Assembly (NCBI RefSeq): GCF_007993755.1
Contig: NZ_CP042467.1
Location: 1,898,001 to 1,962,000 of the forward strand
Length of the DNA: 64,000 nt
Direction of reading: 5' to 3'
Source: Microvenator marinus
GTDB taxonomy: Bacteria > Myxococcota_A > Bradymonadia > Bradymonadales > Bradymonadaceae
Shown: positions 8,760 through 48,407 of the stretch, in pieces
Position numbering within the stretch: the stretch's first letter is position 1
How the letters are laid out: every line of letters begins with the position of its first letter
Made by a program: the position numbers and the translations under genes
Notes under the pieces: model-generated
Databases searched by the model: none
What the model saw: only the letters and a program-made list of their open reading frames with translations
What the model was told of the DNA's origin: nothing

Positions 8760-9382
8760 TCGTTGGCTTCTACTTGGGCGATCGCGTGGGCGAGCGCTCG
8801 AGGATAGAGAACTCGTTCAGCTTCCTGAATCCTAGCATGGAGGCTCAATTCATCATCATCGGGGTGCACTCTCACGGCGGCTTGAGCCACCAGAGGGCCC
8901 GCGTCGAGCTCCTCGACCACATGATGAACCGAACATCCGCTCAGCAAAGCTCCTGCAAGCAAGGCGTCCTTGACTGCCGTTGCGCCCTTAAAGCTCGGCA
9001 GAAGACTTGGGTGTAGATTCACGATCCGCTGCTCATACGCTCGTAACAACGGCTTAGAAGCAATGCGCATCCAACCCGCCATCGCTACCCATTCGGCACC
9101 ATGGCTCTGAAGGGCTGAGACGATCGCTTCATCAAAAGTCTCGCGACTCCCAAAATCCCGGTGGGAGACTACACCATGTGGAATCCCCAAACGCCCGGCG
9201 CGCTCGATGGCACCAGCATTTTCCTTGTTCACGACCAGACAACAAACCTGAAAACCTAGACTTGGAGCCGCTTTTACAATCGACTCAAAATTCGAACCAC
9301 TTCCGGAAGCCAAAACCCCGACATTTACGACTCGTGTAGGTCGAGCCAACGATTCCAAGGGTGGTGAAAAAAATACTTCCAC
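8756..9382 (-). CDS. purN: Phosphoribosylglycinamide formyltransferase
   Basis: GAR transformylase transfers a formyl group from 10-formyl-THF to GAR, step 3 of purine synthesis, in the cytoplasm. The hallmark motifs are present: the N-terminal VGVLASGSGSNFES phosphate-binding loop, WVAMAGWMRI, NLHPSLLPSFKG with catalytic Asn/His, and HHVVEELDAGP with the catalytic Asp. Family length is about 190-210 residues. The longest frame (GTG at 9514) adds some 60 residues with no family match and overlaps the divergent gene at 9490. I place the start at GTG 9382 (weak GAGA upstream); TTG 9358 or 9349 is also possible. No other pur gene is nearby. Product certain, start uncertain. Confidence 0.93.
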   Translation of the reverse strand: MEVFFSPPLESLARPTRVVNVGVLASGSGSNFESIVKAAPSLGFQVCCLVVNKENAGAIERAGRLGIPHGVVSHRDFGSRETFDEAIVSALQSHGAEWVAMAGWMRIASKPLLRAYEQRIVNLHPSLLPSFKGATAVKDALLAGALLSGCSVHHVVEELDAGPLVAQAAVRVHPDDDELSLHARIQEAERVLYPRALAHAIAQVEAND

Positions 9383-9489
9383 GTTATTCTCGCGTCTAAG
9401 TCCTTTTGCCTTGAACAGCTCTGAATCTCTACTATCGTAGTGAGTCAAGAGAGTCTTCCAAAATTTCGAAGTCGTTACGGTGTTTTCAA

Positions 9490-11856
9490 ATGAAACTGCA
9501 CATTTTTGCTGCACTTATTGCCCTCACTCTCCTCAGCGCTTGCCAACCTTCATTCGAGGACTCGTATTGTAGCCGCGATGAAGACTGCTTCCCTGGCGAG
9601 CAATGCACGGCGTTCAATCGATGCGTGCCTGCATTTGAAGAGGATATGTCCGAAGATACCGACGTACCCGATGCCACCGAAGACATGACCGAAGTCGATA
9701 TGCCGGTCGATATGCCCGAAGTCGATATGCCAGAGGATATGCCGAACCTCGATCCCGATGGAGACGGCATCGAAAACGAAGACGACAACTGCCCTGACGT
9801 AGCCAACCCCGAGCAAGAAGACCTCGATGGAGACGGCATCGGCGACGCATGTGACGACGATATCGATGGCGATGGTATCGACAACGACGACGATAACTGT
9901 CCGTTGATTGTAAACCCAAATCAGGGCGATCTAGACAGCGATGGGGTCGGGGATTTCTGTGATGACGATATCGACGGGGACGGCGTTCTTAACGACGAAG
10001 ATAACTGCCCACTCATCGTAAACGCCTCCCAAGAAGACGCCGACGGTGACGGCGAAGGCGACGTATGTGATATCGATATCGATGGAGACACGATTGAGAA
10101 CACCGAAGACAACTGCCCGTTTGATGTAAATCCAGGCCAGGAGGATCAAGACTCAGACGGCGAAGGTGACGCATGCGACGACGACATCGACGGGGATGGG
10201 TTTGATAACGATAACGACAACTGCCCACTCGTCTTCAATGACGAGCAGGAAGACCTCGATAACGACGGCGTCGGGGACGCCTGTGAAGATGATCTAGACG
10301 GAGACGGGGTCATCGACGCAGATGACAACTGCCCAGAAACGCCCAACCAAAACCAGACAGACTCAGACGGCGATGGGATCGGGGATGCGTGCGATAATTG
10401 CGACGGCACCGCGAACCCGAATCAAGAAGACATGGACGGAGACGGTGTAGGCGACGCATGTGATAACTGCCCGTCGATCTCGAACTCCTCGCAAGCCGAT
10501 AACGATTCGGACGGGCTCGGCAACGTCTGTGATAACTGCCCAGACGACGACAATCCACTCCAAGAGAACCTCGACGGCGATAATTTTGGTGACGTGTGCG
10601 ACCCGGACATTGACGGGGATGGAGTCATCAATACAGCCGACAATTGCTTGTTGATCCCGAATAACTCTCAGACCGATACGGACGGTGATGATGTTGGGGA
10701 TGTTTGTGATAACTGCCCAAACACTGCCAATACCGATCAGGCCGACACCGATGGTGATGGCTTTGGAGATGTTTGTGATAACTGCTCGCTTATCTCCAAT
10801 CCAAACCAGGCAGACGCTGATAGCGATATGGTCGGAGATGTCTGTGACAACTGCCCAAACACCGCCAACACAGACCAACTAGATTCAGACGGTGACAACG
10901 ATGGAGACGTCTGCGATGCAGACCGTGACGGTGACGGCATTGACAACAACACCGACAATTGCCCGGACGTACCAAACCCCGGACAGGCCGATCTTGATGC
11001 AGACGATGTCGGGGACGCATGTGACCCAGACCGCGACGGAGACGGCGTAGACAATACCACTGACAACTGCCCGGACATCGCGAACGCCGGACAGGAAGAC
11101 CTTGATGGAGACGATGTAGGGGACGCATGTGACCCAGACCGCGACGGAGACGGCGTAGACAATACCACTGACAACTGCCCGGACATCGCGAACGCCGGAC
11201 AGGAAGACCTTGATGGAGACGATGTCGGGGACGCATGCGACCCAGACCGCGACGGAGATGGCGTAGACAATACCACTGACAACTGCCCGGACATCGCGAA
11301 CGCCGGACAGGAAGACCTTGATGGAGACGATGTCGGGGACGCATGCGACCCAGACCGCGACGGAGATGGCGTAGACAATACCACTGACAACTGCCCGGAC
11401 ATCGCGAACGCCGGACAGGAAGACCTTGATGGAGACGATATCGGGGACGCATGCGACCCAGACCGCGACGGAGACGGCGTAGACAATACCACTGACAACT
11501 GCCCGGACATCGCGAACGCCGGACAGGAAGACCTGGATGGAGACGATATCGGTGATACTTGTGATGGAGACCGAGATGACGACACCATCGCGAACGACTT
11601 CGACAATTGCCCCGACGTTGCGAACCCACTGCAGGAAGACCAGGACATGGATGGTGTGGGAGATTCGTGTGACCCCGACATCGACGGTGACCTGATACCC
11701 AACGGAACTGACAACTGTCCAACCACGGCAAACAACGACCAAACAAATTCAGATACCGACGCATTGGGGGATGCATGCGATAACTGTCCAACCGTAGATA
11801 ATCCGGGACAAGAAGATGGGGACAATAATGGAATTGGGGACGCCTGCGAGCCATAA
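9490..11856 (+). CDS. Large thrombospondin type-3 repeat lipoprotein
   Basis: A 788-residue lipoprotein. The signal MKLHIFAALIALTLLSACQ has lipobox LSAC. A short Cys module (CSRDEDCFPGEQC) and an acidic linker with repeated VDMPEDMP follow, then some 20 TSP3 repeats to the C-terminus. Near 11023-11562 five copies of a 36-residue unit (DRDGDGVDNTTDNCPDIANA...) are almost identical at DNA level, evidence of recent expansion. TSP3 repeats bind calcium and form extended rods. The Cys of DNCP and GDACD should form stabilising disulphides. No terminal enzymatic or binding domain is visible. It overlaps the next gene by about 29 bases, so the two are translationally coupled. Long reading frames on the opposite strand are by-products of the repeat composition. 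Confidence 0.92.
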   Translation: MKLHIFAALIALTLLSACQPSFEDSYCSRDEDCFPGEQCTAFNRCVPAFEEDMSEDTDVPDATEDMTEVDMPVDMPEVDMPEDMPNLDPDGDGIENEDDNCPDVANPEQEDLDGDGIGDACDDDIDGDGIDNDDDNCPLIVNPNQGDLDSDGVGDFCDDDIDGDGVLNDEDNCPLIVNASQEDADGDGEGDVCDIDIDGDTIENTEDNCPFDVNPGQEDQDSDGEGDACDDDIDGDGFDNDNDNCPLVFNDEQEDLDNDGVGDACEDDLDGDGVIDADDNCPETPNQNQTDSDGDGIGDACDNCDGTANPNQEDMDGDGVGDACDNCPSISNSSQADNDSDGLGNVCDNCPDDDNPLQENLDGDNFGDVCDPDIDGDGVINTADNCLLIPNNSQTDTDGDDVGDVCDNCPNTANTDQADTDGDGFGDVCDNCSLISNPNQADADSDMVGDVCDNCPNTANTDQLDSDGDNDGDVCDADRDGDGIDNNTDNCPDVPNPGQADLDADDVGDACDPDRDGDGVDNTTDNCPDIANAGQEDLDGDDVGDACDPDRDGDGVDNTTDNCPDIANAGQEDLDGDDVGDACDPDRDGDGVDNTTDNCPDIANAGQEDLDGDDVGDACDPDRDGDGVDNTTDNCPDIANAGQEDLDGDDIGDACDPDRDGDGVDNTTDNCPDIANAGQEDLDGDDIGDTCDGDRDDDTIANDFDNCPDVANPLQEDQDMDGVGDSCDPDIDGDLIPNGTDNCPTTANNDQTNSDTDALGDACDNCPTVDNPGQEDGDNNGIGDACEP
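11023..11562 (+). repeat. Tandem 108-bp repeat, five copies
   Basis: Units begin at 11023, 11131, 11239, 11347 and 11455 with a constant period of 108 bases. They differ at only a few positions, for example gatgta/gatgtc/gatata before ggggac. Each encodes one 36-residue TSP3 repeat. High DNA identity indicates recent duplication or gene conversion; copy number could vary between strains. Confidence 0.95.
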
Positions 11857-38145: not shown

Positions 38146-38156
38146 TCAGATAGGTC
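38139..38156. terminator. Weak hairpin at abutting convergent stops
   Basis: GACCTA (38139-38144), ATCAGA loop, TAGGTC (38151-38156). The palindrome spans the TAA of the plus gene (38143-38145) and the TGA of the minus gene (38146-38148). No T-run on either side, so termination is doubtful. Confidence 0.3.
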
Positions 38157-40077
38157 TGACGAATTTGGCGGCACTAGGCGCATCCCCTCTGACAAATTGC
38201 CAGCGTAAGACACCACTAAACTTCTCCGTCAAAACGAAGGGTTCTTGGAAGCCGGGGACGCGCAGTGTGAGCGTTGCTGAGTCAGGCCCGACCCTTATAT
38301 CTGGTTCTTGATTACCAAGGCGAGTTTGGAAGTGGAATCCTTCGATTAGACGCAGCAAATTTGGGGCACTCGACTTGATAGAGAGGCCCGTGTTCCCCAA
38401 GAAGCGCGCAAAATGTGGCCTGTACCCAAGCAACAAAAAGTCGCCTGTGGAGCGGACGTAGGCAATCGTGTTGGATTCCTGGCCAAAGTCGATCGAGTGG
38501 CGCCTTGGAATCGTGAAGATGATTTGCCGCTCATCGGAAGCCCTGACGTCAATAGAATCAATGATCTCCACGAGTGGAAAAGCAGCGGCGGGCGGAAAGT
38601 GCATCATCCAAAGCTCTGAGAGCCTATTGCGCAGCGCGAGATCCTTGAGTCCAGCCGTGTAATCCGCCTGTTTGTTGATGGCGAAGCCTCGATGCTGACT
38701 CAAAAAGTCAAACATCGTCGAATAGAGATCAACAGACGACTTATCTTTAGCTTCGACCCACTCCCTCGCCAAAGCAAACGGCAAGAACTTCTTGTCTTCG
38801 GCCTCAACAAAGCTCTGCTCGGTCTCGTGGTCGAGTCGCCAGATCGCACCAATACGCTTTGCACACACCACACCCAAAAATGCACCAAGCGCCAGCACAT
38901 CTGTAGAGATACTAGCGCCACGGAGATTGTATTCTTCGGGGATAGGTGGAAGCTCTTGGAGCACGCCGGCGAGGCATTGCGCTTCGATCTGGGAGATCCC
39001 CATCATATCAAACGAGAGGGATCGGGCGACTCCAAACGTAGCGACCTCGGCCAAAATCTCAACGCCTCGGCTAACCAAGATTTCGCTCTCAACAGAGCCC
39101 GTCGTAACGGCCACACGATTGTTCCGGATTCGCCTCATATCGTTGTTTAGCGGCATCGGACGTAGGTTTGGGATGGTGTCGATCTTTGTTGATTCGGAAG
39201 GCCACAAGGGTAATCCAAGCTGGGTCACACCACCTTGCAATTTCTCATTTTCGCTACGGTCTTCGGCCATCAAACGAGCCAGCGGTGGCACCTTAGTCCC
39301 ACTCATCCGGCCAAAGATTGGAGGGGGCTGTGCGCCGCTAGACGCGTGGGTCTGCATGGCACTACGTCTGACCGAGTTCGAAGCCGCACTGTTTGGCATG
39401 TCAGGCATCGATGCCGGCTGACTAGTGACTACTGCGGCTTCACGCCTGGTTGGGGGAGCTCCTTCCATCGGAAAGACGGGAAGAGGACGCTCATTGGCCG
39501 GTATGCCCTGCTTAGAGGCCAAAGCACGCCTGACAATCGGCAAGAATCGCAATTCTGGATAAGGAGGACACGATTGCTCGATATGATTGACAAGCCAAAG
39601 GGCTCGTTCGGGCTCCACTTTCTTGGCTGCGACCGCCCGACATAGGTCGAAGAACACGCTCACGACGTGGGTGAACGCATGTGGCCGAGTGGCATCGTTG
39701 GAGAGGGCCTTTACGATATCCTCGGCCCCATCTTCCCACTTGGCTCTTCGAATCTTTTGTTCTCCGCGTAGCGCAAGGAGCCAGCCGTTGTTGGGCTCAC
39801 TCTCGAGCCCTTGATTTACAAGGCCCTCGGCCTCTCCGCGACGCCCCATGGTGCCAATAGACTCTCCGAGGAGTCCAAGACTCATGGCCGAACGATCCAA
39901 CTCCAAAAGGTTCTGCGCAAAGAGTACCGCTTCATCAGCACGCTGAGTCATGAGGCGAATTCGAATCAGGCCTGCCAGAGCAACGACGGGTGAGGTTTCG
40001 AGATTCGCTCGAAAATGCTCCTCCGCCTGACCAATTTGTCTGTTTCGCAGAGCGTTCCAACCCTCAGCAATACTCAT
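38146..40077 (-). CDS. TPR-like hypothetical protein
   Basis: A 643-residue cytoplasmic protein. The first ~150 residues look like TPR repeats (EGWNALRNRQIGQAEEHF, AVLFAQNLLELDRSAMSL, GEAEGLVNQGLESEPNN). Residues 190-300 are low-complexity linker. The C-terminal ~300 residues include mixed alpha/beta sequence (VATFGVARSLSFDMMG, LGAFLGVVCAKRIGAIW, FLLLGYRPHFARFLG) that I do not recognise. It lies 33 bases after the histidine kinase gene on the same strand and may be the last gene of that transcript, in which case a role in output or localisation would be plausible. No signal peptide. Confidence 0.75.
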   Translation of the reverse strand: MSIAEGWNALRNRQIGQAEEHFRANLETSPVVALAGLIRIRLMTQRADEAVLFAQNLLELDRSAMSLGLLGESIGTMGRRGEAEGLVNQGLESEPNNGWLLALRGEQKIRRAKWEDGAEDIVKALSNDATRPHAFTHVVSVFFDLCRAVAAKKVEPERALWLVNHIEQSCPPYPELRFLPIVRRALASKQGIPANERPLPVFPMEGAPPTRREAAVVTSQPASMPDMPNSAASNSVRRSAMQTHASSGAQPPPIFGRMSGTKVPPLARLMAEDRSENEKLQGGVTQLGLPLWPSESTKIDTIPNLRPMPLNNDMRRIRNNRVAVTTGSVESEILVSRGVEILAEVATFGVARSLSFDMMGISQIEAQCLAGVLQELPPIPEEYNLRGASISTDVLALGAFLGVVCAKRIGAIWRLDHETEQSFVEAEDKKFLPFALAREWVEAKDKSSVDLYSTMFDFLSQHRGFAINKQADYTAGLKDLALRNRLSELWMMHFPPAAAFPLVEIIDSIDVRASDERQIIFTIPRRHSIDFGQESNTIAYVRSTGDFLLLGYRPHFARFLGNTGLSIKSSAPNLLRLIEGFHFQTRLGNQEPDIRVGPDSATLTLRVPGFQEPFVLTEKFSGVLRWQFVRGDAPSAAKFVRPI

Positions 40078-40110: not shown

Positions 40111-41658
40111 CTAATGGGAAACCATAGGAAGACGCACCTCAAAACATGACGTTTTCTCGTCAAGTACGCGAATTGTGCCCCCATGGCCTTCTACAATTTG
40201 TTTGGAAATGTAGAGACCCAGACCGAGAGAATTGGAGTTCTGTAAACCTTTTTCGGAGCGATACATGCGCTCGAAGACCTTTTCGCGCTCTTCCCTCGCG
40301 ATACCCGGCCCCTGGTCGCGTACCGTCAAGACCAGCACTTTAGTGTCGGTCTCAATGGCGACATCAATCTGGCCCTCACCGTATTTGATGGAGTTTTCGA
40401 CCAGGTTTGTCATGACCTGATCCAGCCTTCCCGCATCAATATTGGCGATGATCGAAGGTGCTTCATACTTAAGTAGCACGGGCCTCTCTTCGGCTCGGAT
40501 CCTCCAAAAATCGAGCAGAGTTCGTAGCAATGCGACCACGTCTGTGGGCCGTTCACGAATGTCGATCTGTCCCCGCTCAAGCCTTGAAAGATCAAGGATC
40601 GTATCCACAAGCCTGCCGAGGCGGCGCACCTGCTCTTCCGATTTGGTGAGCAATTTCAGGTTAGCCTTCTCCCCGTTTTCGGCCTGCTGCCGAAGCATTT
40701 GGATAAAGCCTCGCAGCGGTGTCAAAGGCCCCCTGAGCTCGTGGGTCGCAATCGAAAGAAACTCGTCCTTTACGTTTTCGGCCTTAGCCCTTTCGGTCTG
40801 GTCCTTCACGGTGGCCAAAAACGAGGTGAACCCTTCGACCCCTGGAATAGGGAAGACACTGATCTCAACATATTTAAACCTGCCCTCAAAATCCAACCTT
40901 AGCCGCTCTGCGTAGACCGAAACCCCGCGTCTAACAGCTCTGAAAAACGGCCACTCAGATCGCGGAAGCCTTTGGCCCGTGTGAGAGAACATACGAAACG
41001 CAAATGGTTCGGTATTGAGGTTCTTGGCAGGTATCTCCAGAATGTCTCTGAGCGCTTCATTTGCAACGATGACCTCGCCTCTTGCCGAGAAGAGCAAGAC
41101 GCCATCAGGAATTCGCTGAATCAACGTTTGAAGCCGGGTCTGTTCTTCTCGAAACTCGTTCAGAACAAAGACGTGCCCGATGACCTCTCCGAGGTTCTTT
41201 CCAATGCGAGCGAGAAAACCATCGTCCATCAGAAAGGTCTTGGTGTCCGCGTCTGCCAACGGATAGACATGAAGCGTACCGAGCACCCTCTCCTCGGTTT
41301 GAAGAGGAATGACGATCTGAGCCTGGCCCGGCAACTCGCTATCCCAAGAGAACGAAAGGGACGTTACCTGAGATGCTTCCAAAATGGGCTTGAGAGCTTC
41401 GTTCATCCCCAAGTCGACCGCCATTCGCGTATCGAGCATCAGGCCCCGCCAGGCCACCGGGCGTAGCTTTCCTGAGTCAACGAGCCCGAGAGCAATGGCG
41501 TCTGTTGGGAAGGTTGCCTGCAAGAGGTCCAAGATTGCCCCGTAGAGTTCTTCGGGGCACCGAAACTTAAGCGCAAGTCGAGTGATGGCAGAGAGAACAC
41601 GTTCTTGTTCGAGCGCCTCTTGGGGCCCCAACTCATGGTAGCCACTATCCTTCCTCAA
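40111..41658 (-). CDS. GAF-PAS sensor histidine kinase
   Basis: A 515-residue soluble histidine kinase. An N-terminal GAF-like domain (~15-170), a PAS domain (~175-290, DGVLLFSARGEVIVANEAL), HisKA with phospho-acceptor HELRGPLTPL (~302), and HATPase_c with NSIKYGEG (N box), DQGPGIA (G1) and LGLGLYISK (G2). No membrane segment is visible, so it senses a cytoplasmic signal. The start is TTG 41658, inside the TGA of the upstream beta-helix gene (TTGA overlap), with AGGAGG six bases upstream; this decides the start and implies translational coupling to that surface lipoprotein. No response regulator is adjacent. Confidence 0.93.
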   Translation of the reverse strand: MRKDSGYHELGPQEALEQERVLSAITRLALKFRCPEELYGAILDLLQATFPTDAIALGLVDSGKLRPVAWRGLMLDTRMAVDLGMNEALKPILEASQVTSLSFSWDSELPGQAQIVIPLQTEERVLGTLHVYPLADADTKTFLMDDGFLARIGKNLGEVIGHVFVLNEFREEQTRLQTLIQRIPDGVLLFSARGEVIVANEALRDILEIPAKNLNTEPFAFRMFSHTGQRLPRSEWPFFRAVRRGVSVYAERLRLDFEGRFKYVEISVFPIPGVEGFTSFLATVKDQTERAKAENVKDEFLSIATHELRGPLTPLRGFIQMLRQQAENGEKANLKLLTKSEEQVRRLGRLVDTILDLSRLERGQIDIRERPTDVVALLRTLLDFWRIRAEERPVLLKYEAPSIIANIDAGRLDQVMTNLVENSIKYGEGQIDVAIETDTKVLVLTVRDQGPGIAREEREKVFERMYRSEKGLQNSNSLGLGLYISKQIVEGHGGTIRVLDEKTSCFEVRLPMVSH

Positions 41659-43718
41659 GGGGTTCCTCCTGGAATCTGCCCCGGTGCGCCCATCTCGCCT
41701 TCGGAAACAACTTCAACTACCGCGATTGGATTGTTGACGGGCCCATCGATGGCTACCACTCCTGCACGACCGACCTCACCGAGCTGGTTCTGACTCCACG
41801 AGCAATCAACGATTCGACCGGTACTCACGTTGTCAAAGAAGGCTCCCAAACGTTGGTTTCCTACGATCGCGAGGGACTCAATTACGCTGACTCTTCCTCC
41901 GTAGAAGTAGAGGCCATCTCCTGCGCCGGCCACGCCATCGACTTGAGTGAGCATCACCTGGGAGTTTAGGACTTGTGCGTTGACGTTATAGGCGAACACT
42001 CCGTTGCCGCCACTTCTCACGATGGCCGCATCTTCGATCACGAGTTCAATATTCTCTCCTGCGTCCAGCTCAGCTGCATAGCTCCAGATTCCGCCGCCGA
42101 GATTTTCGAAATAGAGTCCACCCTGAACTTTCATCTTCGCGGGTGTTTGCGCATGAGAGAGTAAGGCTACGCCTTGATTCTCGGTGATACTGGCCTCTTG
42201 AACGAGCGTGAAGTTTGGAGACTCGACGAACACTCCGTGGCCACCAAAGCCTTCTGCATTAGTGCTCGTGTCGGTGATGGCGCCTCCGCTTACCCAGAGC
42301 CCACCAGCAACGGATTGCACGCCAGCCACACCGTTCGATTCGACGTTCGTGTTCACGAGATTCATGGTCATGAATCTAGCCTCGCCCTGAAGCGTACCGG
42401 CGCCAATATACATATCGCCGGGCAAGTACATATCGCCGGGCAAGTACATATCACCGGGCAAGAATGCGCGTTCTCGGAAGTACATATCGCCGGGCAAATA
42501 CATATCGCCGGGCAGGAAAATATGGCCCGGGAATGTCTCGGCTGAATCGAGGAGATTTTGGAAAACTCGAATACCCGGCAAGAGCTCACCGGGCTCAAAA
42601 GCTGGGGACCCAGGGGTATCCAATGCTGCGGCGAGTCGATTCGAAGCCACACCTTCAAACAAAATTCCTCGGTCGGTGTTGTTGGCGATGACGCTCTCTG
42701 AAATTCGCGTCCGGCTTCCTACCAAATGGAGACCTCGACCGGAGTCTCTGACCTCAAGTGAGCTTGCACCCAAAAGGCCGTTTTGATTCTGGACACCCAC
42801 ACCATCGGCTGCGGCTCCGATTCCCGCGACCAGAACGTTGTCTGCGACGATCATGGCTGAATTCGCGCGCACACCGAATCGCGAATCCGCGGCGCCGCGA
42901 ACTACGACATCCACCATGGAGAGTGCGCTTCCAAACGGCGCGTAGCTCTCGGATTCGGCCTCGTTGACCTGGATACCAATCTGGTTTTCCGAAAACACAC
43001 TAGCGGCGATGCGAACCTCGCCACCCGTCAAGTCGAGGGCGCTGGCGTAGTCCTCGAACGCGCTATGAAAGACCGCAAGCACACCTTCGGAGTTCCAGGT
43101 AATTGCAGAATCTCCACCTCTGAAGACCGAATTCACGGTCGCAAAATAGTCGACGTCCGTGGCTTGAATGGCGGCTCCACGAATCTCTAGGTTCGCGATC
43201 ACCACCGATTCTAGGCCATCAAGTTCGAGTGCTGAGGTGAACTCCAACGACACATCGCGCCAACACGAAGAGGCGAGCACAAGGCGCTTGACGCCCTCAG
43301 TGTTAATAGATGAAATCTGGTGTTCGCCGGGCGCAAACTCAATGAAGAGATCGCCGTCAGCACTTGCCTGGAGGTCGATATCAGTGTTTCCTGGCTCAAC
43401 CCGCTGCAATTGAATGGGTACTGCACCTGCAAGAGAGCGGCTTGGGCACGAGAGTACGCCAGCGTTTCTTCCATTGAGCGATTCTCCTACGTCAACGCGG
43501 CCACCATTGAGCCCGAAGTTGTCGTTGTTCCCACCAACGTCCTCACCTACGCCGAAATCAAGCTCAGGCTCCGGTTCTGGAGACGCTGGCGCATCAGGTC
43601 CTTCATCAACTCCCAAATCGGGCTGGCCCTCGTCCTCAGCACGAAAATCAGCGCCATCGGAATCGCCCGCACACGCACTAAGAAATCCAGCCAATAGCAA
43701 TATCAAAAACTTGGTCAT
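41655..43718 (-). CDS. Beta-helix lipoprotein with LPGDMY repeats (paralogue A)
   Basis: A 687-residue lipoprotein (signal MTKFLILLLAGFLSAC, lipobox Cys16) with an acidic linker. Residues ~90-680 look like a right-handed parallel beta-helix: short turns with repeated V(x)I, e.g. VVIANLEIRGAAI, AILRG-like, VSVIESLAIVGNQRLGAFFDN. In the middle (42408-42533) it has an insert of seven hexapeptides, mostly LPGDMY. The paralogue at 43728 has the same insert at the same place. Beta-helix lipoproteins of this kind are surface proteins, often acting on glycans or as adhesins, but no catalytic motif is seen. It is separated from its paralogue by 9 bases and is coupled to the histidine kinase gene. Confidence 0.85.
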   Translation of the reverse strand: MTKFLILLLAGFLSACAGDSDGADFRAEDEGQPDLGVDEGPDAPASPEPEPELDFGVGEDVGGNNDNFGLNGGRVDVGESLNGRNAGVLSCPSRSLAGAVPIQLQRVEPGNTDIDLQASADGDLFIEFAPGEHQISSINTEGVKRLVLASSCWRDVSLEFTSALELDGLESVVIANLEIRGAAIQATDVDYFATVNSVFRGGDSAITWNSEGVLAVFHSAFEDYASALDLTGGEVRIAASVFSENQIGIQVNEAESESYAPFGSALSMVDVVVRGAADSRFGVRANSAMIVADNVLVAGIGAAADGVGVQNQNGLLGASSLEVRDSGRGLHLVGSRTRISESVIANNTDRGILFEGVASNRLAAALDTPGSPAFEPGELLPGIRVFQNLLDSAETFPGHIFLPGDMYLPGDMYFRERAFLPGDMYLPGDMYLPGDMYIGAGTLQGEARFMTMNLVNTNVESNGVAGVQSVAGGLWVSGGAITDTSTNAEGFGGHGVFVESPNFTLVQEASITENQGVALLSHAQTPAKMKVQGGLYFENLGGGIWSYAAELDAGENIELVIEDAAIVRSGGNGVFAYNVNAQVLNSQVMLTQVDGVAGAGDGLYFYGGRVSVIESLAIVGNQRLGAFFDNVSTGRIVDCSWSQNQLGEVGRAGVVAIDGPVNNPIAVVEVVSEGEMGAPGQIPGGTP
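42408..42533 (-). repeat. 18-bp repeat encoding LPGDMY hexapeptides, copy A
   Basis: Seven 18-base units in phase with the reading frame: in protein order FPGHIF, LPGDMY, LPGDMY, FRERAF, then LPGDMY three times. Bases 42498-42515, 42480-42497, 42444-42461, 42426-42443 and 42408-42425 are near identical. Confidence 0.92.
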
Positions 43719-43727
43719 TTTATCTTC

Positions 43728-45809
43728 CTATAGGTCTGCAGGAGCTGAAGGCAGGTTATCGAGCTGACGAGGCGGGTCAATTGGAGTGAAGCCACTATCA
43801 CCAAGTCCAGCAACCACACCATCAGAGCCGGCGATTGCATTTTGTGGTGTATCAGACGAAACCGCGAGCTTATCAGCCTGCGTGCCATCTCCATTCTGAC
43901 TCCAGGCGCACGAGTCGATGGTGATTCCACTCACGCTGAGGAGTCTAGCCCCAAAGCTCTCGTTTCCAACGATCGCGATATCAGACATCAAGGCATTTGA
44001 AACGCCCCAGAAAACTAGCCCATCGCCAAGCTCAGCCCCTGTAAGCTGGCCCTTTCCAGTGAGCATCGCCTGAGACTCCGAGACTTGTGGGTTCGTGTTG
44101 TAGAACAAGAATGCCGCGTTCTGACTCCGAATCACGCTGGTTTGGTCAACGAAAACGTCGGTTTGATCGCTCGCTCCGCCCTCATTCATCAACCAAAGAC
44201 CACCATCTGTATTTTGGAACATCAAGGCCTCGTCGATGGTTGCCTTCATTGGCTTGGAGGAGTGGGCGAGTAGGCCAATGCCTGGATTCTCGGCAATGTT
44301 GACATCCGCGAGTTGAAGGTAGGTGGCCGAGTTGGCAAAAATGCCGTGGCCATCAGCCGCTCCGATGCGCTGAGTGTCGGTGATCTCCGACCCACTCAAC
44401 GAAAGACCAGCGGCACGAACATCGATGCCCGCTACGCCGTTTTGAGTGAAGTTGGTGTTCGAAACTTGGGCCCCGGCAAAGAATTCTGCAGAGGACGGAT
44501 CCAGGCCCAGGCGAGTATCCGTGGGCAAATACATATCGCCAGGCAAGTACATATCGCCGGGCAGGAAGGAGCGCTCTCTCAGGTACATATCGCCGGGTAG
44601 GTACATATCACCCGGCAAATACATGTCTCCGGGCAGGAAAATATGACCTGGGAAGAGTTCAATCTCAGCCAAGAGGTGGTCCTGCCAATCCTGCCAGCCG
44701 GGAATCAAGCCAGCGGGCGAATAGAGCGATGAGCTCAAGTCTTGCAGGGCCGCTGCTAGTGCGGGTGCGTCGGTGCTCGATACGTAGAGTCCGCGGTTCT
44801 GGTTTCGCCGGATATCTGAATTGGAAAGGATCGCGCGAGTTGTCTGAAGGTTGACGCCGACGTTTGAGCCCACAACTTCGATCCCGTCCAAAGTGGCCAA
44901 GCTCTGCGAGGCGTGGATGCCCGTGCCGTTCACAAATCCGGAGGCGCGTACGTTTCGCAACCAAAGAGCGTTTCGCTCAACATCTACGGCTGATCCCTCG
45001 ACTTCAGTCCCGCTAAGGACCACGTCACTTAGAGATACCGAGCCCGTGAGGGCTTCGTCACCCTGAGTCGGTCGCGCCTTGATTCCTGTGTTGACGCTCG
45101 AGAATACAGACGACGTGACGTAAACATGCCCGCCTTCTACGTCTAAGGCGGTTCCCATATTCTCAAAGAAGGTATGGACAAGGAGTAGATTGCCCTGCGA
45201 TCTCCACTCCACTCCAACGTTTGCGCCACGATGGACGGTGTTGACTAGGCTGAGGACGTCCACATTTTCAGCAAGGATACCACCGCCGTTGAACTCGATG
45301 CCCGCGAAGACCACCCGAGTCTTGTCCTTTAGTTCGAGCATTGAGTCGATATTAACCGATGCCCCTCTCCAACAGGCACTCGCGATGACCACAGTGCGGG
45401 CATCTGCGAAATCAAAGTTCAACGCATCGTGTTCGCCGGGCATCAACTCCGCAAAAATCACCCCGTCTATTGGCGCAGGAAGTGGCGAGCCCGGCGCAAC
45501 ACGTGTCGCACCATCTTGCCCAAGACTCGCACCGACGGAACACGAGATGGTCCCAACCGGACGGTCTCCAAGTACAGTTCCGAGCCCAAGCCCGTCTCCT
45601 TCCACTCGGCAATCCGAGCAAAAGAATGGCGACGAGCCGTTGGTCATATCGTTTTCATTGTTCCCGTTGTTGGAGTTGTTACCTCCAACATCACTGTTGG
45701 ACATATCCCCGGGATTTTCGCCGTTTACCGCTGGTGATTCGGAATCACCACACCCAAGAGAGACGACCAGAGAAAGCAGCAAAATCGTTTTTTGCACGAG
45801 GAACTCCAT
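43728..45809 (-). CDS. Beta-helix lipoprotein with LPGDMY repeats (paralogue B)
   Basis: A 693-residue paralogue of the preceding protein, also a lipoprotein (signal EFLVQKTILLLSLVVSLGC). ATG at 45809 gives a better start than the TTG at 45812. An Asn/Gly/Met-rich linker (residues ~25-60) leads to a predicted beta-helix with the same order of short turns as paralogue A (VVIASACWRGASVNID, LLLVHTFFENMGTALD, SDIAIVGNESFGARL). The hexapeptide block (44511-44654) sits at the same location. The pair arose by tandem duplication; sequence has diverged except in the block and the helix framework. It lies 66 bases after the kinase-FGE gene and 9 bases before paralogue A. Confidence 0.85.
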   Translation of the reverse strand: MEFLVQKTILLLSLVVSLGCGDSESPAVNGENPGDMSNSDVGGNNSNNGNNENDMTNGSSPFFCSDCRVEGDGLGLGTVLGDRPVGTISCSVGASLGQDGATRVAPGSPLPAPIDGVIFAELMPGEHDALNFDFADARTVVIASACWRGASVNIDSMLELKDKTRVVFAGIEFNGGGILAENVDVLSLVNTVHRGANVGVEWRSQGNLLLVHTFFENMGTALDVEGGHVYVTSSVFSSVNTGIKARPTQGDEALTGSVSLSDVVLSGTEVEGSAVDVERNALWLRNVRASGFVNGTGIHASQSLATLDGIEVVGSNVGVNLQTTRAILSNSDIRRNQNRGLYVSSTDAPALAAALQDLSSSLYSPAGLIPGWQDWQDHLLAEIELFPGHIFLPGDMYLPGDMYLPGDMYLRERSFLPGDMYLPGDMYLPTDTRLGLDPSSAEFFAGAQVSNTNFTQNGVAGIDVRAAGLSLSGSEITDTQRIGAADGHGIFANSATYLQLADVNIAENPGIGLLAHSSKPMKATIDEALMFQNTDGGLWLMNEGGASDQTDVFVDQTSVIRSQNAAFLFYNTNPQVSESQAMLTGKGQLTGAELGDGLVFWGVSNALMSDIAIVGNESFGARLLSVSGITIDSCAWSQNGDGTQADKLAVSSDTPQNAIAGSDGVVAGLGDSGFTPIDPPRQLDNLPSAPADL
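44511..44654 (-). repeat. 18-bp repeat encoding LPGDMY hexapeptides, copy B
   Basis: Eight 18-base units in frame, in protein order FPGHIF, LPGDMY three times, LRERSF, LPGDMY twice, LPTDTR. The same anchor units (FPGHIF and xRERxF) as in copy A, but with a different number of LPGDMY units on each side, showing unit gain or loss. Confidence 0.92.
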
Positions 45810-45875
45810 CAATCAAAACCAACAATTCGAGAAGTCTAGTTCACTTCTGCATGCGATTCAAAAAGCCGAGTGATT

Positions 45876-48407
45876 TTAAAGGGTGAGCGCTAGTCTAAAG
45901 CCGTAATGCGCATACCGATATTGTGGAAGGCTGGCCAGATCCACATCAAGTCGGCAGATGATAGAGGCAGAGTTGTATGCAGCCCCTTTGAGCGTCATGC
46001 GGTCACTGCCTGAGGACTCCGGTGTAGAGGTCCACTCGACGATATTGCCTGCCAAATCCAAGACGCCGTAGGGCGACACATCCGTTGTCGTTGTGCCAAC
46101 CGGCTTTGGTACTGGCCGCTGGTTGCTTGAGTCCTTCATATTGCAGAAGGTGGCGTCAAAATGGTCGCCCCAGGGATAGATTCTGCCATCGACGCCGCGC
46201 GCAGCCTTTTCCCACTCCATAGCGGTAGGAAGTCGATACTCAAAACCATCCATTTGGCCGCGCCATTTGGCAAAGGCGAGTGCGTCGAAGTAGTTCACGA
46301 TCAGAATTGGCCATCGCGGATCCCACGCATCACCCTCAGCGTCTTGCGCAGGCAAATGGTAGCGTCCGTGTTCGTCGCGCGGGAAGTAGCTCTCGCCTTC
46401 TTCAATTCTGGGCGTGTGCTTCTCGGCCGCCTCTGGCTCGATATCGTTGAGGAACTCAAGGTATTGCCCCACGGTCACTGGCGTTTTCATGATCGCAAAT
46501 TCTTCGACCATGATCTCGTCGTTGCCGCGAGAAAAATAGCCGGCGGGGATTTGAACAAAATCTTGAGGGAAATGGTCTTCCGCAAAGAGGCGCACATCCA
46601 CTTTGATCCTGTCGACTCGGCCCATTGCGATTGGAACTCTGACTGAACGAAAGCCCGCCTTTTTTACGAGTGCGACGTAACTTCCGTGCTCGAGCACCGC
46701 GCGCTCAAACGGGGCATGGAGGGTGGCATGCAGCCACTCAACGAGGCGCCGATTTTCTTTGTGGTATCGATACAACTCCACAGTGGCTTCGCCCGCGGAC
46801 GTATCAAAAGTGAGCGTTCCGCTACCTTCGAGTAAAGGGTCGAGTTCACCGTCGTTGAACTGCCGGACCAAGCCTTCCAGATAGGCAGCCTCGGCGTATT
46901 TCCCGGCGCTCTCAGCAGCCTCAAAGCGCTGCCAGTAGAGATTCGCAAGTCCCAGTCGCGCCTCGGGCATCTCGGGTAAGAAGGCGAGCACGTCAGAGTA
47001 AATCCGAACGGTATCGGCAAACCGCCTTTCCATCTCGATGGCGAGGTCATCTGCTTGCTGCTCGAGGTTCCAAAGCTCTTGTTTGTCATGGCCAGTCGAC
47101 CACGAAGGAACGGTTTTTCGTTTGGTCTCAAGTTCGGTCAAAATCTGGCGATGTTGCACGCGCACATCGTCGTAGACCGCTCGGGTTTGCTCGGCCAAGG
47201 ATAGCGTCTCAAGCGCGGCCTCGCGTCTTTTTTCGCGGTCTTTTACACCTTCGAGGAAAAGCTCGAGTTCGTCAGCGAGCTCCTGTGCTGACTGGTAGCG
47301 ATTGGCGGGATCCTTCGCGAGGGCCTTTAGGCAGATCTCCTCGAGCGCTTCAGGGATGCCACGTTCAGGAGCCTTCATGCGTGGTGGCTCGGGCGTATCA
47401 TGCACGATCATGAAGAGCAGGCCGAGCATATGGTCTGCGGTGAAAAGAGCTTCCAGCGTCAGGATCTCGTAAAGAATCGCGCCAAGCGAATACACATCTG
47501 TACGCTCATCAACCTTATCATTCTCGCCGCGCGCTTGTTCGGGCGCCATATACTTGGGCGTTCCAATCAGCGAACCGACCACGATTTGTTCGGTATCCTC
47601 AAAGCCGTGTCCAGCGTGCATCAATTTGGCGATGCCCCAGTCGATGACATAGACCTCACCGTAAGCACCCACGAGGATATTATCGGGTTTTAGGTCGCGA
47701 TGGACCACGCCTTGTCGGTGGGCGTATTCGATGGTGAGTGAGACCTGGCGCAGAACCTGGACGAGGAAAGAGAGGCTCAAAGACTCTTCTTTGGCCTTCA
47801 TCCCTTTGATGATGGTGCCGAGATCCCGCTCCCGGACAACTCGCATCGTGTAAAAGGGGCGGCCTTCGTCGTCAGCACGGAGATCGTAGACCGGGGTCAC
47901 GTTCGGATGCTCCAGAATCCCGGTGACCTGAGCTTCCAAGAGGAGGCGATTCTTGAATTTGTCTGAGTTGGCCTTGTCCAGCAGGGACTTTAGCGCAACG
48001 TCTCGACGCAGGACCTTATCGTGCGCGCGAACCACCAGGCCCATGCCACCGCGCCCAAGCTCTTCTTTGAAGTCGTAGCGGGCCTCGCCGTCCAAAAGCA
48101 GCGTGATATCGTCTGCAAGGATGACTTCTCGTGTAGGTACCACGGTAGGGTCGTGCCTTGCGGCCTCAACTTGATCTACCACGATCGTATTTCCGAACTG
48201 TAGCTCTTCCTCAACGCTAATGCCGGCATCGAGGTCGTGTTCGAGCGTCGCAAGGACCTCTGAGCTCAACTTCTTTTTTGCAATCAGTACTTCTTGGAGC
48301 GGAAGTCCTGCAGCAGCACTCTGCGCCACGCAAAACATCAGGTCACCAAGCGAGATCAATCCCCTCGCGAGTGCAAGTTGCCCTACTTGTTGTTCTTTCA
48401 GAAGCAT
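45876..48407 (-). CDS. Ser/Thr kinase fused to degenerate FGE-sulfatase domain
   Basis: An 843-residue protein. Residues 1-105: helical region like the MshEN/GspE-N type (VGQLALARGLISLGDLMFCV). Kinase domain ~110-390 with GRGGMG, VALKSL, HRDLKPDNIL, DWG (in place of DFG), and GTPKYMAPEQ, so probably active. Residues ~390-600: helical linker. C-terminal ~230 residues: formylglycine-generating enzyme/sulfatase-modifying fold (VTVGQYLEFLND, YRLPTAMEWEKAARG, YPWGD, GVLDLAGNIVEWTST, YRYAHYGFRLAL). The GGSW and Cys pair of true FGE are absent, so the domain probably binds rather than catalyses. Similar kinase-FGE fusions occur in chlamydial Pkn1. First gene of a possible minus-strand signalling cassette. 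Confidence 0.92.
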   Translation of the reverse strand: MLLKEQQVGQLALARGLISLGDLMFCVAQSAAAGLPLQEVLIAKKKLSSEVLATLEHDLDAGISVEEELQFGNTIVVDQVEAARHDPTVVPTREVILADDITLLLDGEARYDFKEELGRGGMGLVVRAHDKVLRRDVALKSLLDKANSDKFKNRLLLEAQVTGILEHPNVTPVYDLRADDEGRPFYTMRVVRERDLGTIIKGMKAKEESLSLSFLVQVLRQVSLTIEYAHRQGVVHRDLKPDNILVGAYGEVYVIDWGIAKLMHAGHGFEDTEQIVVGSLIGTPKYMAPEQARGENDKVDERTDVYSLGAILYEILTLEALFTADHMLGLLFMIVHDTPEPPRMKAPERGIPEALEEICLKALAKDPANRYQSAQELADELELFLEGVKDREKRREAALETLSLAEQTRAVYDDVRVQHRQILTELETKRKTVPSWSTGHDKQELWNLEQQADDLAIEMERRFADTVRIYSDVLAFLPEMPEARLGLANLYWQRFEAAESAGKYAEAAYLEGLVRQFNDGELDPLLEGSGTLTFDTSAGEATVELYRYHKENRRLVEWLHATLHAPFERAVLEHGSYVALVKKAGFRSVRVPIAMGRVDRIKVDVRLFAEDHFPQDFVQIPAGYFSRGNDEIMVEEFAIMKTPVTVGQYLEFLNDIEPEAAEKHTPRIEEGESYFPRDEHGRYHLPAQDAEGDAWDPRWPILIVNYFDALAFAKWRGQMDGFEYRLPTAMEWEKAARGVDGRIYPWGDHFDATFCNMKDSSNQRPVPKPVGTTTTDVSPYGVLDLAGNIVEWTSTPESSGSDRMTLKGAAYNSASIICRLDVDLASLPQYRYAHYGFRLALTL

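Follow-up and report, generated by a model that had tools for sequence, protein, structure and literature searches.

A tandem LPGDMY block in two paralogous beta-helix lipoproteins of Microvenator marinus, most likely a local form of a widespread hexapeptide module

The window, that is, the whole stretch of 64,000 nucleotides of Microvenator marinus DNA analysed here, carries two neighbouring paralogous genes, A and B, each coding for a beta-helix lipoprotein with a short array of the hexapeptide LPGDMY. Together with two kinase genes and a gene for a TPR-like protein they form an operon on the minus strand, with the following features from the first gene to the last:

45876..48407, minus strand, Ser/Thr protein kinase with a C-terminal FGE-sulfatase-type domain, at the head of the conserved operon
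43728..45812, minus strand, gene B, array-carrying beta-helix lipoprotein of 693/694 amino acids (lipobox SLGC; PF13229, E 5.3e-14)
44529..44654, minus strand, array of gene B: FPGHIF, three LPGDMY, LRERSF, two LPGDMY
41655..43718, minus strand, gene A, array-carrying beta-helix lipoprotein of 687 amino acids (lipobox LSAC; PF13229, E 4.7e-9)
42408..42533, minus strand, array of gene A: FPGHIF, two LPGDMY, FRERAF, three LPGDMY
40111..41658, minus strand, GAF/PAS histidine kinase, conserved downstream gene
38146..40077, minus strand, protein of 643 amino acids with weak N-terminal TPR similarity, at the end of the conserved operon

The A and B proteins are 38% identical and both scored above the curated PF13229 cut-off of 25.9 bits (36.5 bits for A and 52.6 bits for B). 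The original prediction, that a LPGDMY block occupies the same site in two paralogous beta-helix lipoproteins, was confirmed at 42408-42533 and 44529-44654, and Tandem Repeats Finder called both 18-bp arrays. The block had also been described as bracketed by FPGHIF and as differing in unit number between the genes. In both genes FPGHIF is found ahead of the block but not behind it, and the totals are equal, as each block is made of seven hexads (FPGHIF, five LPGDMY, and one xRERxF) and only the position of the interrupter differs. The proposed gain or loss of units is therefore not shown by the comparison of A with B, although the number of units does vary among orthologues. Nothing comparable was found elsewhere in the complete 5.85 Mb genome, where the two loci matched with E-values of 1e-31 and 4e-19 and the next matches were at about 0.9.

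To call the DNA units nearly identical was an overstatement. The units of the two arrays differ by synonymous codons, with a same-codon fraction of 0.77 within A, 0.47 within B, and 0.64 between the genes. When Met was left out, the fraction between the units of A and B was 0.57, compared to 0.41 for identical flanking residues, a difference that weakly suggests gene conversion between the two genes.

The block had been taken as part of the predicted beta-helix. AlphaFold (gene B and 11 relatives) gave pLDDT values above 90 for the coils on either side and of about 30 for residues 370-436; in this model the block is an insert between coils that leaves the right-handed helix and not one of its turns. 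The insert of gene B, approximately 67 residues that lie outside the helix, is unstructured in the model. No strands were present in the array region of two AlphaFold models, both of which are of low confidence there, and the alignments behind the models were shallow (12-16 sequences), so the low pLDDT may mask an ordered repeat structure. Foldseek searches with the helix returned PL6 lyases and tailspikes, with low TM-scores to PDB entries (no more than about 0.3 among the top rows). The proteins thus resemble right-handed parallel beta-helix proteins both by these fold matches and by PF13229, but differ from them in that the array sits outside the helix, and no entry with a repeat of this kind came up in a sequence search of the PDB.

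A left-handed hexapeptide helix, which had been suggested for the block, shares with it the six-residue period of the PF00132 transferases. However, no Hexapep (PF00132) match was obtained at E 1 in A, B, or ten other carriers, the array unit contains PG, no strands were predicted, and pLDDT was about 30, leaving this fold unsupported. A strict hexad register of the interrupters was also ruled out, by their lengths of 5, 6, 12, or 22 residues in orthologues.

In the class Bradymonadia, a group of predators (PMC7460792), the block sequence was matched in 27 of 57 genomes, some of the matches being low-complexity look-alikes. The orthologues of the window family, found in bradymonad relatives that include Lujinxingia, carry the insert at the same site, but the unit changes from lineage to lineage: LPGDMF, FPGDMF, FPGETF, IPGDEF, FPGEML, FPGDTL, FPGDHF, IPGDAF, FPTDTF, or FPDDFF. 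Copy number and the place of the interrupter vary among them as well, while neighbouring paralogues within one genome have a common unit (loci L038 and L050). The units VPGDMF, VPGNMY, and FPGQDW were seen outside the window family. Gene B alone, used as the query against genome contigs, retrieved no close relative. In another bradymonad, two convergent genes for lipoprotein-like proteins other than beta-helix ones (L040:8524-9342, plus strand, and 9360-10199, minus strand) carry LPGDMF three times; the unit is identical to that of the beta-helix protein of the same genome, and a Ser/Thr kinase gene adjoins.

The gene order of kinase, array lipoprotein in one or two copies, histidine kinase, and TPR-like protein is kept in most bradymonad relatives. 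No membrane segment was predicted in either kinase of the window operon (the Ser/Thr kinase with the FGE-type domain and the histidine kinase), and both look cytoplasmic. The window operon (kinase-FGE, B, A, histidine kinase, TPR-like) contains no ECF sigma gene and, despite the Met units, no gene for a FAD enzyme.

A pattern scan for three tandem units, covering genomes of 84,980 species, gave 111 stretches, about 25 of which are spurious readings; viral contigs gave none. The true arrays have the unit [FIL]-P-G-[DE]-x-[FYL] and lie in several unrelated protein families. Alphaproteobacteria and a few Gammaproteobacteria have them in twin-arginine proteins of about 190 amino acids, and Flavobacteriaceae in small exported proteins; further carriers come from assemblies of Balneolaceae, Gemmatimonadota, Chloroflexi, Cloacimonadota, and Spirochaetaceae. 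A hydrophobic N-terminal segment was found in 61 of 76 array proteins compared to 169 of 513 control ORFs, and several of the misses are start-codon artefacts. As judged from sequence, many phyla have the module, in proteins that are unrelated and for the most part exported. Its occurrence can nevertheless be sporadic: the alphaproteobacterial family was present in 2 of 61 genomes around one host, and no array beyond the two matched by the family profile was found in these relatives. Several very large Flavobacteriales proteins (L079, L122, L147, L150, and L171) have three to five IPGDTY or IPGDMY units in a common context.

No meaningful match to the array was found in Pfam or NCBIfam with ten carriers, no convincing one in the PDB, and no significant match in a fold search with the domain of an alphaproteobacterial array protein. 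The literature search found no paper that prints the array units searched. Plasmid and phage matches to the repeat query were set aside as probable low-complexity or chance matches. The objection that a described beta-helix family might commonly have the motif thus holds in one part, since the block is frequent among the orthologous beta-helix proteins of the class, but both family and unit are absent from Pfam, NCBIfam, the PDB, and the literature searched. Neither is the unit specific to beta-helix proteins, as it occurs in others too. Most likely, the LPGDMY block is a local form of a widespread tandem hexapeptide module that is undescribed in the databases and literature searched.

Pairwise codon comparison within 110 arrays, a few spurious readings included, gave 2549 synonymous and 273 non-synonymous differences. 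Position 5 of the unit was identical in 0.92-0.96 of the pairs within arrays, while between arrays the identity was 0.56 in the alphaproteobacterial, 0.23 in the bradymonad, and 0.18 in the flavobacterial family. PG was invariant in 82 of 82 consensus units of the pattern scan, in which the pattern itself demands it, and nearly all orthologues from the protein search keep it. The units of an array thus change as a set, selection holding them identical in amino acids while lineages differ. Uniformity as such appears to be under selection, because turnover alone would homogenise the silent sites too. The clearest uniformity at the protein level was seen in a protein of a Chloroflexi assembly (L142:3901-5457), in which 14 LPGDQF units are all identical although 10 different DNA units encode them. 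A unit code common to a whole genome was rejected, as single genomes mix units. In Rhodohalobacter (L158:3797-5247), two neighbouring related exported proteins have different units, FPGDHF/FPGDNF in one and IPGDAF in the other, and one Salinibacteraceae assembly has FPGDAY, FPGDEL, and FPGDSF (L113, L119, and L129).

In the proteobacterial family, a FAD monooxygenase-like gene lies downstream on the same strand, abutting or overlapping the array gene, in all 15 members with Met at position 5, and in none of the nine with T, S, D, N, or H there. The rule emerged from 14 cases; for the 15th (L127) it was predicted and then confirmed in further downstream sequence. The association has a p of about 8e-7 if the members are taken as independent, while a weak tree gives about four trait changes. 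Two of the alphaproteobacterial arrays without Met adjoin other genes in place of the FAD enzyme, namely a DUF3137 gene (L165:5903-6841) and, by eye, an apparent LemA gene (L219:9447-10055). Among the NCBIfam models nearest to the FAD proteins are those of QhpG and GoxB, two flavoproteins whose modifying action is on residues of a partner protein (PMC7876137), but the scores of about 32 bits are far below the cut-offs of 240 and 400, and generic flavin monooxygenase models score similarly. The arrays thus resemble the QhpG, LodB, and GoxB maturase systems (PMC7876137) in having a FAD monooxygenase-like gene beside the gene of an exported protein, and differ from them in that the known targets of these maturases are Trp residues, which are absent from the arrays.

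Signalling genes are linked to the arrays as well. Eight proteobacterial array genomes have exactly one Ser/Thr kinase gene, and in seven of them it is no more than about 3 kb away from the array gene; a PF07638 ECF gene is also close by. These linked kinases are kinase-TM-TPR proteins similar to PknS, whose periplasmic TPR region is needed for signalling (PMC13147305). As seen in Alphaproteobacteria, the arrangement is reminiscent of the PknS-EcfK modules of a Hanks kinase and ECF43, although the passages on that system mention no array protein (PMC13147305) and the window operon has a histidine kinase and not a sigma gene. None of the approximately 25 spurious pattern loci had a kinase or ECF neighbour. 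On the other hand, the linkage is not universal: of the 65 aromatic-type loci outside the class, only 10 had a kinase or ECF gene within the stretch examined; flavobacterial carriers often adjoin Reg_prop hybrid sensors. Several of these associations were examined after the fact. As far as gene neighbourhoods tell, array genes share conserved operons with genes for signalling kinases in the class, and with FAD monooxygenase and Ser/Thr kinase-ECF genes in Proteobacteria.

Our leading reading, which we hold tentatively, is that the array, a local form of the widespread module, serves for recognition in the cell envelope as a flexible and multivalent segment. All its units would have to show an identical motif to a single partner or modifying enzyme, and would therefore change as a set. 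As surface lipoproteins, A and B would belong to the envelope and be coupled to the co-encoded Ser/Thr kinase and histidine kinase, as their output or as the element sensed. Direct contact between these kinases and the lipoproteins is unlikely, as neither kinase has a predicted membrane segment. Uniformity within arrays combined with free change between lineages is an unusual constraint, which points to a partner or an enzyme that reads each unit. If the reading is right, a short repeat outside the family databases searched marks an envelope function common to distant bacteria, the predatory Bradymonadia included.

A rather less probable explanation is post-translational modification, in which the proteobacterial FAD monooxygenase would oxidise the units, at the Met of position 5 or at the aromatic residue, before the protein leaves the cytoplasm by the Tat route, with other chemistry or none in other lineages. 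The strict co-occurrence of the FAD gene with Met-type arrays (15 of 15 as opposed to 0 of 9), the twin-arginine signals of the array proteins, and the presence of QhpG and GoxB among the nearest models are in favour. Yet those scores are poor and unspecific, the related maturases act on Trp, the few trait changes on the tree amount to few independent events, and the window operon combines Met units with the lack of such an enzyme. It is unlikely that the two ideas join in one scheme for exported proteins across bacteria, in which the uniform array would be a multi-site substrate of a dedicated modification, with the proteobacterial flavoprotein oxidising the Met units ahead of export by Tat, after which the array would serve as ligand of the Ser/Thr kinase with the periplasmic TPR.

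Equally doubtful is a structural role, in which PG turns would stack the units into a short beta-spiral or cross-beta ladder, with identical residues for stacking in register. The near-universal PG and the uniform residues would suit such a ladder, and there is a precedent in elastin VPGxG and similar PG repeats, which are turn-rich. By the elastin-like criterion of a PG turn in tandem units, nearly all orthologue units from the protein search qualify, and the arrays share with elastin, glutenin, and silk a short tandem unit with PG and hydrophobic residues. They differ in the acidic residue after PG, the six-residue unit, the number of units (3-14), and the location inside folded exported bacterial proteins. 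Moreover, the two AlphaFold models have neither strands nor confident structure in the array, and the interrupters break the strict period of six. Neutral slippage of a recently expanded, functionless 18-bp repeat would account for the variable copy number and interrupter place, as tandem arrays slip easily, but it is very improbable: it was refuted by the ratio of synonymous to non-synonymous differences, and the module recurs at the same site across the class and in unrelated proteins across phyla. An element acting at the DNA level (a binding site, a recombination site, or a mobile repeat) that lies in coding DNA by chance could explain the 18-bp direct repeats common to both paralogues. 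This is even harder to credit and was rejected on the synonymous bias, as the DNA of the units changes at silent sites but the protein does not, and no viral contig matched.

Elsewhere in the window, at 10912-11552, Tandem Repeats Finder called a 108-bp tandem repeat of 5.9 copies with 94% match. Its consensus resembles an acidic, Asp-rich calcium-binding repeat of the thrombospondin type 3-like kind.
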